Of a stretch of 64,000 bases of DNA, positions 39,100 through 47,349 are shown piece by piece. The notes under the pieces were generated by a model that made no database searches, was not told the origin of the DNA, and was given only the letters and a program-made list of their open reading frames with translations. The DNA is taken from NCBI RefSeq assembly GCF_900475675.1, contig NZ_LS483403.1, positions 682,001 through 746,000 of the forward strand, written 5' to 3'. The number at the start of each line of letters is the position of its first letter. Positions within the stretch are counted from its first letter, which is position 1. Both the position numbers and the translations under genes were made by a program. Origin of the DNA: Streptococcus lutetiensis. Its GTDB lineage: Bacteria; Bacillota; Bacilli; Lactobacillales; Streptococcaceae.

Positions 39100-40081
39100 G
39101 TAAAAAGAAAGCAGTATATTGATATCTTAAAAGTTATTGGCTTACTTGGAATTGTTTTAGCTCATGTTACCCCACCAGCAGTGGTGTTTCAGCTAAGAAA
39201 TTTTGATGTTGTTTTGATGATTCTAGTTTCAGCTTATTTAGGTTTGAAATCTAGAAAATCAGAAGAGTTAATGCCGTATTTGATAAAACGATTTAAACGA
39301 TTGGTTCTTCCTACCTGGATCTTTGTCTCATTTTTTCTTTTATTAAAATTGTGTTTAGGAAATTTTGATCTAGGATTTAAGGGAGTGTTGGCAACATTCG
39401 CTTTATCAAATTATGGTATTGGGTATGTTTGGATTATTAGAATTTATTTTGTTGTTGCAATTTTAATTCCATTATATATATAAAGCTTTGAAGTTATATT
39501 TGAATGAAGTCCATGTTTTATTAATTTCATTGTTACTATTTGTAGGATATGAGTTCTTATGTCATGCAGGAGTGTTTAACAATAAATTATTAGATTATCT
39601 GATAGCCTATTTTATTCCATGTTTCTTATTGTTAGTGTTGGCTAAAATAATTTTTGAAAGCGAAAAATGGAATAATATTACTATAATGGTAAGTTTTCTA
39701 ATTTTTGTTGCATATGCAGTTTATTTGTATAGAGAGAATGGATACTTTATTCAGACTCAAGAATATAAATATCCATTTCAACTATATTATTTAAGTTATG
39801 GTATCCTCGTATCCGGTATTTTGATAAAATTGACAAAGAGAGTAACGCTTGCTGGATTTTTGTATGACAAAGTAATATTGTTTATATCAAGTCATTCACT
39901 TTGGATTTATTTATGGCACATTATTCCTGTAACCTTGTTGAATCATTTTGCTTTAGCATAGTATATTAAATATGTATTAGTTCTTATTATTGCTTCAGCT
40001 TTAACGGTTTGCCAGAGCAAAATTGTAGAAAAACTTCAAGGAAAAGTAAATCCTGAGCTTTTAAATATTTTTAGAGGGTAA
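39100..40081 (+). pseudogene. Broken acyltransferase-3 family gene (capsule O-acyltransferase)
   Basis: The conceptual product begins KRKQYIDILKVIGLLGIVLAHV, the usual N terminus of acyltransferase-3 membrane proteins, and ends near residue 327. Three lesions are seen. A GTA stands where the start codon should be, 5 bases after GGAG. The frame breaks at a TA microsatellite (TATATATATA, 39473-39482), where one more TA unit would restore it. An amber stop lies at 39959-39961, after which the same frame continues to a natural TAA. The total of 982 bases plus 2 is exactly 328 codons. Confidence 0.8.
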
Positions 40082-42971: not shown

Positions 42972-44018
42972 TTAAATTTTTTTAGAATTTTTAGGTAATT
43001 TATTACTGTATAAACTTTCAAAAAAGTATTGTCTTATAAATTCAATAAATGAGCAAACGATAAAAACTAGTAAAATTACAGAAATAGAATATGGAATTAG
43101 AAACTTATCTTGTTCGTGTGATGAGTTTTTAAAGAATGAAATCCATAAAAAATTTCTTACATAGCTATTATCGTGAATTAGATATATTCCAAATGTTGTT
43201 GATGAAATGATGTTTATTAATTTGTTGTATTGCAGATCAATTTTTGAAAAGCCTAAAAATAATAATACGGATAAAACCAATATTGGTATTCTTTGTTTAT
43301 CATAAAAGTAAGTAGAGTGCTCTGCAAAAATTTTGTATTTCATACCAATAATGTCAAAAATTATAACAGTTAAAAAGGTTAGGAGAGTTATTGAAAGTGA
43401 ATATAGAAGATACTTTTTAGCATTATATCTAAAATTATAGTGTAATCTTAAGTATCCAGACAGTGAATAGAGATAAATAAACCACAATAAGTTATCAGAA
43501 AGAAATTTCTGTCCTGTTAATGTAGGAATAACACTCCAAAAAATTGTTAGTATTAGAATAAAAAGTTTATAATCTTTTTTTGATAATGAAAGTAATAATT
43601 TGTTTAAAAATGGGGAAAGAATATATAGAACAAAATATGTACTTGCAAACCACCATTCACCGAACGTTATTGGAAGAAGATGTTTTACCAATTCTTTGAT
43701 TGAGAACTGGTAAAATCCTATTGTGGTAAAAATTCCATATAATACAATAGAATATATAAAAATTTGTAGCCAAAATTTTATAATTTTATCTATTTTAATA
43801 TTTTGAGATTTGATTAAAAAGTATCCGGATATTAAAACAAATAAATTAATTCCGATGGTTCCGCCCATTTTAATAAACTGAATCCAAAGTCTATTAGGAG
43901 TGATTAAAGATGTTGGAAATGTGAACTTACCATGTAACGCAAAATGATGCGCAATAATTAGAATCATCGCAATAATGCGTAGTAGTTCAATATTTGATTT
44001 ACGTTTGCTTTTAGTCAC
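42972..44018 (-). CDS. Acyltransferase-3 family membrane protein
   Basis: The 348-residue product has an N-terminal KSNIELLRIIAMILIIAHHFALH block with the catalytic-type histidine pair and about ten membrane helices, typical of sugar O-acyltransferases. It is transcribed opposite to the main cps operon and lies 15 bases downstream of the ugd fusion gene, so it is likely in that transcript. It could replace the broken acyltransferase at 39100. Low GC and rare codons suggest recent acquisition. Confidence 0.83.
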   Translation of the reverse strand: MTKSKRKSNIELLRIIAMILIIAHHFALHGKFTFPTSLITPNRLWIQFIKMGGTIGINLFVLISGYFLIKSQNIKIDKIIKFWLQIFIYSIVLYGIFTTIGFYQFSIKELVKHLLPITFGEWWFASTYFVLYILSPFLNKLLLSLSKKDYKLFILILTIFWSVIPTLTGQKFLSDNLLWFIYLYSLSGYLRLHYNFRYNAKKYLLYSLSITLLTFLTVIIFDIIGMKYKIFAEHSTYFYDKQRIPILVLSVLLFLGFSKIDLQYNKLINIISSTTFGIYLIHDNSYVRNFLWISFFKNSSHEQDKFLIPYSISVILLVFIVCSFIEFIRQYFFESLYSNKLPKNSKKI

Positions 44019-44033
44019 TTTATCTCACCTTCA

Positions 44034-45515
44034 TTAATCTCTTCTAAAGATATCGCGTGTGTAAACTTTTTCTTTGACATCGTCCAGTTCGGTGTTGTAG
44101 CGATTAGCGACGATGCTTTGACTAAGTTTTTTGAATTGTTTAAGGTTGTTCACAACTTTTGAACCAAAGAAGGTTGTACCATTTTCTAGAGTTGGTTCGT
44201 AGATGATAACAGTAGCACCTTTGGCTTTGATACGTTTCATGACACCTTGGATAGAGCTTTGACGGAAGTTATCAGAGTTACTCTTCATAGTTAGTCGGTA
44301 AACACCGATAACAGTTTCTTTTTCTTGTTGTGGTGAGTAGTTATCGTTATTTGTATAAGCGTAATACCCTGCAAGTTTTAGAACTTGGTCAGCGATAAAG
44401 TCTTTACGTGTACGGTTTGATTCAACGATGGCAGTCATCATATTTTGAGGGATATCATTGTAGTTAGCCAAAAGTTGTTTTGTATCTTTTGGCAAGCAGT
44501 AACCGCCATAACCAAATGATGGGTTATTGTAATGTGTACCGATACGTGGATCCAGACCAACACCGTTAATAATTGCTTGTGTATCAAGTCCTTTTAACTC
44601 GGCATATGTATCAAGTTCGTTAAAGTAAGAAACACGAAGGGCGAGATAAGTATTTGCGAAAAGTTTAACGGCTTCGGCTTCAGTGAATCCCATAAAGAGA
44701 GTATCGATATTTTCTTTTTCAGCACCGTCTTGAAGAAGTTGGGCAAAAAGTTTAGCAGATTTTGTGAGTTCTTCGTCTTCTTTGTCGGTTGATACGATGA
44801 TACGACTTGGATAAAGGTTGTCATACAACGCTTTTGATTCACGTAAAAATTCTGGACTGAAGATGATATTTTTTGTATTGAACTTTTGACGTACAGAGTC
44901 AGTAAATCCTACAGGAATTGTAGACTTGATGACCATAATGGCATCTTTATTAACAGAAAGAACTTGTTCGATAACTGATTCAACAGCACTAGTATCGAAA
45001 TAGTTCTTTTCACTGTCATAGTTAGTAGGAGCAGCTATGATAACAAAGTCAGCATCTTTATAAGCAGTATCACCGTCAAGAGTAGCAACTAAGTCAAGCT
45101 CTTTTTCAGCAAGGTATTTTTCAATATAATCATCTTGAATAGGTGATTTTTTGTTATTGATAAGTTCAACTTTTTCAGGAATAATATCAACTGCAGTGAC
45201 ATGGTTGTGCTGAGCAAGTAGAGTCGCGATTGACAAACCTACATAGCCAGTACCTGCAACAGCAATATTATAAGCATGGTTAAGTTTTTGTGTTTTTTCT
45301 TTTTTAATAGTAAACAAATCTGTGATGTCAAATCTAATAATATTAGCAAGAGTTTCAATCTGGCTAATTGATGGAATGTGTTCACCTTGCTCGATCTTAC
45401 TTAAGATAGAACGATTAATGCCACTCTCAGTAGCCAAAGCTTCCTGAGACACTTTATTATCTTTACGATAATCCAAAATTAACTTAGCTAAAATAGCTGA
45501 TGAAAATAATTTCAT
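44034..45515 (-). CDS. XRE-type HTH / UDP-glucose 6-dehydrogenase fusion
   Basis: One open frame of 493 residues joins two domains. Residues about 10-67 are a Cro/CI-type HTH ([20 protein letters not shown], then [13 protein letters not shown]). Residues about 82-493 are a HasB-like UDP-glucose dehydrogenase with [12 protein letters not shown] (NAD), [30 protein letters not shown] and [10 protein letters not shown] (nucleophile Cys340). Catalytic motifs look intact, so it should make UDP-glucuronate. Streptococcal HasB lacks the HTH. There is no stop or start signal between the parts, and GTCAGGAGG precedes the fused start. DNA binding and autoregulation are inferred. Confidence 0.9.
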
Positions 45516-45536
45516 TTAAAAAACCTCCTGACTAAA

Positions 45537-45565
45537 ATTATACCGCTTTCTGAATTTTAAAACAA
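45537..45565 (-). promoter_or_regulatory. Promoter of the HTH-ugd gene
   Basis: On the minus strand TTGTTT (45565-45560) and TATAAT (45542-45537) are 17 bases apart, 22 bases before the start codon. Confidence 0.65.
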
Positions 45566-45636
45566 CTAAAAACCCTAATTTTTTTTAAAGATATCAGTAA
45601 ACTGTTTTTTTAAAAAACAACAAGTGCTTTGAAATT

Positions 45637-46736: not shown

Positions 46737-47030
46737 ATGATGGTTGCTATTATTGAAAGAAATCGAGATTTCAAGTTTTTGACTAATAAGGAATTGTTAG
46801 AGCAGGCAAAGATTAATTCGAAAAAACAGGGAACTACTTTGTCGAGGGCACTTGATTTATTTGTTAAGCAAGTGGCTATTACCAGAGAAATTAACCTGAT
46901 GAGTGAAGAAGAGCTTGAAAAAGAAAGATTGTTTAGACAACTTCAGACAGAGGTAAATGAAAGCATAGCAGAATATAAAACTGGAAAATATTATACTGAG
47001 GAAGATTTAAATGAACGATACGGTTTATGA
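46737..47030 (+). CDS. RelB/ParD-type antitoxin
   Basis: The 97-residue protein has a charged N-terminal region, TTLSRALDLFVKQVAI (a ribbon-helix-helix-like segment, about residues 34-49) and an acidic, helical C terminus (MSEEELEKERLFRQL). Size, charge and position before a RelE/ParE-type toxin gene identify an antitoxin. The start may be ATG at 46737 or the next codon. The 3' end overlaps the toxin start by 20 bases. Confidence 0.75.
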   Translation: MMVAIIERNRDFKFLTNKELLEQAKINSKKQGTTLSRALDLFVKQVAITREINLMSEEELEKERLFRQLQTEVNESIAEYKTGKYYTEEDLNERYGL

Positions 47031-47349
47031 GATTGTTTTCCAAAGTAATATGATTACAAAACTAGATGAAATATATGACTATATAGCTAAAGAGCTTTCT
47101 GCTCCGATTACTGCAAAGAAAAAAATTAAAGAAATTCGAGATAATATATCTATATTGAAAATGTTTCCTAAATCTGGTTTTGATGCAGATGAGAAATTTG
47201 GAAAGGTAATAGATTCCAATAACAAAAGGAGGGAAATCACTTTAAAAAGAGATTATATTGTTTTATATTTTATTGATGGTAATCAAAGACGTGTAGCTGT
47301 TACAAATTTATTTTCAATAAAAAGCGATTATGTGAAACTTTTTAAGTAG
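47011..47349 (+). CDS. RelE/ParE-family toxin
   Basis: The 112-residue protein has the RelE/ParE plasmid-stabilisation pattern: YEIVFQSNMITKLDEIYDYI, FPKSGF and a C-terminal RREITLKRDYIVLYFIDGN with IKSDYVKLF. It overlaps the antitoxin gene by 20 bases, as is usual for type II pairs. Whether it is an mRNA interferase or a gyrase poison cannot be told. Confidence 0.8.
   Translation: MNDTVYEIVFQSNMITKLDEIYDYIAKELSAPITAKKKIKEIRDNISILKMFPKSGFDADEKFGKVIDSNNKRREITLKRDYIVLYFIDGNQRRVAVTNLFSIKSDYVKLFK

Follow-up and report, generated by a model that had tools for sequence, protein, structure and literature searches.

A helix-turn-helix domain fused to UDP-glucose 6-dehydrogenase, with a candidate operator at the promoter of the fused gene

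Introduction

Two reports (PMC5293562; PMC6978683) describe trifunctional PutA (proline utilization A) as a metabolic dehydrogenase that carries an N-terminal DNA-binding domain and represses its own genes, and PMC6391492 and PMC6978683 describe BirA (biotin protein ligase) as a single protein that is both an enzyme and a transcriptional repressor of its pathway. The protein examined here, a fusion of a helix-turn-helix (HTH) domain with UDP-glucose 6-dehydrogenase (HTH-UGD), resembles PutA in joining a DNA-binding domain to the N-terminus of a metabolic dehydrogenase, and repression of its own gene is proposed. Whereas PutA has a ribbon-helix-helix domain and degrades proline, HTH-UGD carries an XRE-type HTH on a biosynthetic nucleotide-sugar dehydrogenase. 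With BirA, whose control by a ligand is known, it shares the combination of enzyme and repressor in one protein, repression by HTH-UGD being predicted, but the domains of the two are not homologous. Among the Pfam and NCBIfam families found in the fusion, none was homologous to a domain of PutA or BirA. By analogy, HTH-UGD would work like these two proteins, as an autorepressor enzyme, while being homologous to neither.

The enzyme part of the fusion corresponds over the whole domain, catalytic residues included, to the UDP-glucose 6-dehydrogenase (UGD) of Streptococcus pyogenes (structure 1dli), which we take to be HasB and which forms a dimer; the S. pyogenes enzyme has no HTH, and the match to it begins at residue 83 of the fusion. 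In a profile search, the nearest solved HTH domains were those of SinR and of restriction-modification control proteins, which unlike HTH-UGD are free-standing regulators with no enzyme part. Among the open-licence papers listed in literature searches, no title or opening part of an abstract described the HTH-UGD fusion or its operator. The principle of an enzyme that is also an autorepressor is already known from PutA and BirA; the new result here is a matching operator-like site at the enzyme's own promoter. With regard to the features that characterize a trigger enzyme, HTH-UGD combines an enzyme and a DNA-binding domain in one chain, and a putative own-promoter operator is found in the family and, in a weak form, at the locus from which this analysis started.

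Architecture of the fusion gene

We analyzed a 64,000-nucleotide stretch of the Streptococcus lutetiensis genome (NZ_LS483403.1, positions 682,001 to 746,000), hereafter the window. The features of the locus discussed below are as follows, in window coordinates.

42972..44018, minus strand: acyltransferase-3 gene, 15 bp downstream of the fusion gene; presumed co-transcribed
44034..45515, minus strand: HTH-UGD fusion gene, 493 amino acids, ATG start (translation and Pfam)
44037..45269, minus strand: UDP-glucose 6-dehydrogenase, residues 83-493 (Pfam, NCBIfam, 1dli alignment)
44496..44498, minus strand: codon of Cys340, equivalent to Cys260 of S. pyogenes UGD (1dli alignment; presumably catalytic)
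45270..45305, minus strand: linker, residues 71-82, poorly conserved (homologue comparison and structure model)
45318..45473, minus strand: XRE/HTH_3 DNA-binding domain, residues 15-66 (Pfam, 38.7 bits; confidence of the structure model 92-94 over most of the domain)
45390..45413, minus strand: recognition helix, residues 35-42, with Ser at residue 36, a position that co-varies with the putative operator in relatives
45524..45529, minus strand: Shine-Dalgarno sequence AGGAGG (from the sequence)
45537..45542, minus strand: predicted -10 hexamer TATAAT (consensus match; absent from the list of a separate promoter scan)
45560..45565, minus strand: predicted -35 hexamer TTGTTT (consensus match; absent from the list of the same scan)
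45603..45619, no strand assigned: palindrome TGTTTTTTAAAAAAACA, as read on the minus strand, that resembles an operator; centred 96 bp ahead of the ATG, and a weak form of the site seen across the family

A preliminary description of this DNA had claimed a single uninterrupted frame across the junction of HTH and enzyme, a Cro/CI-type HTH at about residues 10-67 and a complete HasB-like dehydrogenase with Cys340, all of which held. The minus strand of 44034-45515 is one open frame that translates into 493 amino acids without a stop codon. Pfam HTH_3 matched residues 15-66 at the N-terminus (38.7 bits against a cut-off of 23), followed in order by the N-terminal, central and C-terminal UDPG_MGDP_dh domains at residues 83-249, 279-368 and 404-482, each above its cut-off, and the dehydrogenase part aligned to S. 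pyogenes UGD, its nearest neighbor among solved structures, along the entire length. In this alignment T199, E222, E226 and K284 of the fusion correspond to T118, E141, E145 and K204 of 1dli, and N288, C340, K343 and D344 to N208, C260, K263 and D264; we take these Thr, Glu, Lys, Asn, Cys and Asp residues to be the catalytic residues of UGD. The score for the NCBIfam subfamily TIGR03026 was 309 bits, above the cut-off of 189.8, and that for the equivalog NF011631 was 552, below the cut-off of 757. The fusion is the sole strong PF03721 match in this genome, two others being marginal (27.3 and 25.8 bits, cut-off 27). Comparison thus establishes an intact fusion with an intact active site, and the enzyme part is, as judged from its sequence, a complete UDP-glucose 6-dehydrogenase with predicted activity. 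A structure model of the fusion had a mean pLDDT of 79 and a pTM of 0.58; its quality was good for the HTH but low in some regions of the enzyme, and a fold search with this model repeated the sequence-based result.

The preliminary description would have been overturned if close relatives lacked the fusion; the same frame was found in relatives. This frame, with a near-equal distance between HTH and NAD site, was met again both in separate clusters and in named genomes that represent many families; the junction is thus no assembly artefact and the HTH-UGD fusion is real.

Distribution and origin of the fusion

Of the 120 best matches listed, 117 carry the HTH domain; the others are a fragment of the window's own protein (P0076) and two HTH-less or truncated relatives (P0073 and P0074). 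With the HTH part alone as query, 76 proteins were retrieved, all with a UGD domain, although this search was confined to proteins of roughly 270 to 860 residues, a range above the size of small free-standing HTH proteins. An HTH-only profile run over species-level genomes gave 135 matches. Among the best 80 of these 135 loci, 76 are fusions, many in gut Bacillota: 73 are complete, two are cut by a contig end (L105 and L136) and one has a degenerate enzyme (L113). The remainder consists of L131, unassigned to fusion or free HTH, and three free-standing HTH proteins (L092, L094 and L121). The hosts include Streptococcus, Enterococcus, Lactobacillus ruminis, Lachnospiraceae, Oscillospiraceae and Anaerococcus, as well as Erysipelotrichaceae, Christensenellaceae and one Coriobacteriaceae assembly. 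Within Streptococcus, the fusion is present in at least 16 of 284 genomes (E <= 1e-190, match starting by residue 16, at most five candidates scored per genome). Two Streptococcus genomes, G109 and G784, each hold two HTH-UGD fusion genes, which are 69-73% identical to that of the window. A phylum-wide sample of 398 genomes, with at most three candidates scored per genome, yielded at least one full-length match, the window's own alone. HTH-UGD is therefore an old and widespread, albeit patchy, architecture.

In a tree of the enzyme part, the 68 fused rows formed a single group (support 91), inside which 18 unfused rows were nested. Seven changes between the fused and unfused states are needed, of which the starred branches force at least three. 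One fusion followed by several losses of the HTH is the simplest reading of this tree, and since bacterial families are mixed on it, horizontal transfer of the fusion is suggested as well. Fused genes also occur on Butyrivibrio and Enterococcus plasmids, adjoining polysaccharide genes (L216, L217 and L218), so the architecture can travel. At six loci (L089, L123, L146, L153, L157 and L161), a further UGD gene without an HTH lies close to the fused gene or diverges from it. Source annotations name the fused proteins nucleotide sugar dehydrogenase or UDP-glucose 6-dehydrogenase and give no hint of regulation, save for one partial entry named for its helix-turn-helix.

A palindrome upstream of fused genes

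Comparison across the family revealed a 17-bp palindrome, TGTTRYTNNNARYAACA, upstream of fused genes. The exact dyad TGTT-N9-AACA is present in 38 of 77 upstream regions, some of them closely related, against 0.5 expected, and a palindromic matrix derived from these dyads reads wTGTTRYTnnnARYAACAw. Dropping genes that were more than 90% identical or had less than 80 bp upstream reduced 82 fused genes to 69, and unfused UGD genes were thinned by the same criteria to 51. A matrix score of at least 12 bits was reached by 59 of the 69 fused genes, 1 of the 51 unfused genes and 0.3% of shuffled regions; kinship among the genomes inflates such raw counts, and many of the unfused controls are internal genes of operons, with upstream DNA of a different kind. 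The lone unfused gene with a site (L153) faces a fused gene across a common intergenic region. In 688 kb of loci, 63 of the 69 sites scoring at least 15 bits lie within 350 bp upstream of a fused gene, and 2 of the 6 others are just inside the start of one (L112 and L138).

Since the matrix was built from these very upstream regions, it was also tested out of sample. When random halves were held out, 12 bits were reached by 72% of the real regions, compared to 0.3% of the shuffled ones. Three of three plasmid-borne fused genes outside the training set, from Butyrivibrio fibrisolvens, Enterococcus faecalis and E. hirae, had two sites each, one near the start codon and the other 124-149 bp before the start, the two Enterococcus promoters being much alike; no palindrome site was found at an unfused Lactococcus gene outside the training set. 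These genes come from the 10 plasmid records listed of 823, and comprise three of the four full-length matches among those 10 (H1, H2 and H4) plus one unfused gene (H5). Likewise, L105, L113, L131 and L136, which the first filter had excluded, scored 17.6, 19.0, 16.6 and 20.5 bits, respectively.

The fit was uneven across the family. When Lactobacillales were left out of the training, the matrix reached 12 bits in 5 of their 12 rows. With the full matrix, this score was attained at 7 of 19 streptococcal loci, some of which are near-identical; by this measure, streptococci fit the site less well than Clostridia. No site was found upstream of L008, L010, L021 and L083, and L005 and L013 have weak sites only. 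In four fusions of the S. suis type whose site is weak or missing (L005, L006, L222 and L224), inspection by eye revealed TTGTT/AACAA half-sites on the promoter, 12 rather than 9 bases apart, possibly an operator spacing variant. Comparison establishes the presence of sites at fused genes, and the family-wide case that they are operators, built on sequence, is strong.

The site at the S. lutetiensis promoter

The site in the window lies 37 bp upstream of the predicted -35 hexamer. It scored 12.3 bits with the full matrix and 10.3 bits with the matrix trained without Lactobacillales, a value that shuffling of this AT-rich region yields in 1% of cases. Its position 5 is T despite Ser36 in the protein, which goes with G elsewhere. 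A loose pattern, chosen after the matrix, had 10 matches in the 1.79 Mb genome, compared to 5 for the reversed control, so that a match in the 256-bp gap is unlikely to arise by chance; another match in this genome, inside an open frame, scores higher (15.5 bits). The closest named relative, S. alactolyticus, has two sites 51 bp apart, which score 18.2 and 11.8 bits, and the place in the window that aligns by eye with the second of these scored 0.1 bits. For this single promoter we therefore consider the case for an operator to be moderate.

The weakness of the window site raises the question of whether the fusion is a relic in this species, its HTH having lost any regulatory role so that the enzyme alone matters. 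Such a loss would accord with the several HTH-less rows nested in the fused group and with residue 61, just before the conserved F62, which is Arg in the window and Gly, Ser or once Glu in its closest relatives (P0002-P0072). However, HTH residues R17, Q24, R35, S39, E42 and Q52, invariant in 70 sequences, are all kept in the window protein, and both the pair of sites in S. alactolyticus and the low chance of a loose-pattern match in the gap argue against decay. We regard a relic as unlikely.

Predicted recognition of the palindrome by the HTH domain

Unfused genes nested in the fused group separate the contribution of the HTH from that of the enzyme. None of 18 such genes (18 of the 19 loci, L014 being absent) had a site of at least 10 bits, the best scoring 9.5. 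Moreover, the recognition helix co-varies with the site. Across 64 loci, with sites picked blind to half-site position 5, Ser at residue 36 goes with G at that position in 75 of 110 half-sites, and Ala with A in 71 of 96. The association held in independent contrasts (r=0.38, p=0.002), and the enzyme tree requires at least 15 changes between Ser and Ala; the contrast between residue 36 and C at half-site position 6 was not significant (p=0.11).

The free-standing HTH proteins L121:4275, L092:5679 and L094:12 (118-122 amino acids) have nearly the same recognition helix as the fusions. The promoter of L121 itself carries sites of 22.7 and 11.2 bits and that of L092 one of 11.5 bits, while L094 has only 11 bases of upstream sequence. 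Comparison thus establishes that the helix and the site co-vary and that the site is absent without the HTH; as read from these sequences, the site tracks the presence of the HTH rather than that of the enzyme. Taken together, the distribution of sites, the co-variation and the L121 site point to the HTH as the reader of the palindrome.

These three results also bear on the possibility that the palindrome belongs to a separate regulator of UDP-glucuronate synthesis, the HTH being a passenger or binding elsewhere. Binding by the HTH is a prediction, and 10 of the 69 fused genes have no site of at least 12 bits, as a separate regulator would allow. However, such a regulator would leave unexplained why sites track the HTH (59/69 against 1/51, and 0/18 among nested unfused genes), why residue 36 of the recognition helix co-varies with the site and why the promoter of L121, a free-standing protein with this type of HTH, carries a 22.7-bit site, and we consider it quite unlikely.

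One further locus combines an HTH with an altered enzyme. L113 (6001-7482), from an uncultured Clostridiales metagenome assembly, has kept the HTH, a 19-bit site at -165 and the equivalent of Cys340, and has other residues in place of T199, E222, K343 and D344. If real, this single metagenome case may represent a regulator that outlived its enzyme, that is, a pseudo-enzyme regulator.

Scope of the predicted control

The preliminary description had proposed that the enzyme regulates capsule genes directly and, being divergent from rmlD, controls its own gene jointly with the rhamnose pathway. As regards the fused gene itself, the palindrome and the helix co-variation are in favor of direct regulation; as regards capsule genes, the sites found elsewhere do not support it. 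Joint control of rmlD is not supported by the sequence comparison. The rmlD gene is divergent from the fusion gene in the window, where the site is ~150 bp from the rmlD start, and, by the look of the sequence, in L098, but the upstream neighbor is another gene in S. alactolyticus (L082) and at most other loci. In 50 genomes with a fusion (those of 50 of the 80 best loci among the 135), a strict pattern had 45 matches, of which 22, in 17 genomes, were upstream of the fused gene and 23 elsewhere, compared to 13 in all for the reversed pattern. Of the 23, 18 were examined, and 17 of these lie inside open frames. The lone intergenic one, at position 1508 of L212, is 69 bp before a gene that looks glmM-like.

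Control of rhamnose and capsule genes in common is thus very unlikely, even though the window gene lies divergent from rmlD within an exopolysaccharide locus: neighbors vary among genomes, and the 23 off-gene sites compare with 13 for the control. A wider capsule or rmlD regulon, sought with the strict pattern in the 50 genomes and with the loose one in the genome of the window, was set aside on these counts. Since 17 of the 18 strict sites examined away from the fused gene lie in open frames, HTH-UGD appears to be a dedicated autoregulator and not a master regulator of the capsule.

Promoter layout and proposed mechanism

Two or three sites of at least 8.5 bits occur within 400 bp in 45 of the 69 loci. 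Relative to the promoters chosen by a simple predictor, which are consensus matches only, a site lies on or downstream of the promoter in 54 of 68 loci and upstream of the -35 hexamer in 46, with both sides occupied in 31. Sites on both sides of a promoter form a layout of repression, possibly by looping. Spacings of up to 120 bp between paired sites share a significant 10.4 bp period, the cut having been set after the data were seen; over all spacings the phasing had p=0.06, or 0.2 when clustered, and is suggestive only. That the palindrome acts instead as a leader RNA hairpin controlling translation or termination is scarcely credible and was set aside: many sites are foldable and lie between the -10 hexamer and the ribosome site, but those upstream of the -35 hexamer in the 46 loci would be untranscribed from the predicted promoter, and the outer bases (TGTT/AACA) are fixed, with no free pairwise change.

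We therefore favor, for the family, control by HTH-UGD of its own gene through DNA binding, to which we assign a probability of about 0.8 on the strength of the sequence comparisons; that this control is repression and not activation is a little less sure. Binding itself, the choice of repression, the dimer geometry and looping are what we infer from the results above. HTH-UGD would be both a UDP-glucose 6-dehydrogenase and the repressor of its own gene. The UGD dimer would set two N-terminal HTHs on the 17-bp palindrome, and at most promoters of the family there are two such sites, often one upstream of the -35 hexamer and one between the -10 hexamer and the Shine-Dalgarno sequence. Protein bound there would obstruct the promoter, possibly through a loop, such that the gene and any partner on its transcript would be transcribed less once enough enzyme, or enzyme in a particular ligand state, is present. 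Candidate signals for the switch are UDP-glucose, UDP-glucuronate, NAD(H) or the protein level alone, and the odds that HTH-UGD senses a ligand are about even. In the window the same scheme would operate through the weaker site upstream of the -35 hexamer.

A more specific version is tentative, and we think it somewhat more apt to be wrong than right. HTH-UGD would be a widespread nucleotide-sugar homeostat that senses whether UDP-glucose, UDP-glucuronate or NADH is bound, as a measure of the enzyme's catalytic state, and accordingly opens or closes a repression loop between operators that flank the promoter; its regulatory half would then be seen free-standing in L121 and kept on a degenerate enzyme in L113. 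UDP-glucuronate feeds capsules and exopolysaccharides. If autorepression is true, this enzyme family has a built-in repressor, a recognizable operator and a natural helix-to-base code; it would offer a ready system for asking how a catalytic state becomes DNA binding, and control of UDP-glucuronate supply would be predictable from sequence in many gut Bacillota.

Neighboring genes

Upstream gaps of fused genes measure at least 82 bp in 55 of 57 cases, so the fused gene nearly always has room for a promoter of its own. Downstream, 18 of 56 loci have a same-strand gene within 60 bp, and half of these (9/18) belong to one epimerase-type family, presumably UDP-glucuronate 4-epimerase, for which no NCBIfam model reached its cut-off. 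In the window, the acyltransferase-3 gene at 42972..44018 probably shares the transcript of the fusion gene, which it follows after 15 bp, and would thus come under the same control. At 39181-39961, two adjoining frames match successive parts of one acyltransferase-3 domain and are probably a broken gene. A pair of small genes follows rmlD at 46737-47349; the first had no Pfam match and may encode an antitoxin, and the second is a ParE-type toxin by Pfam.
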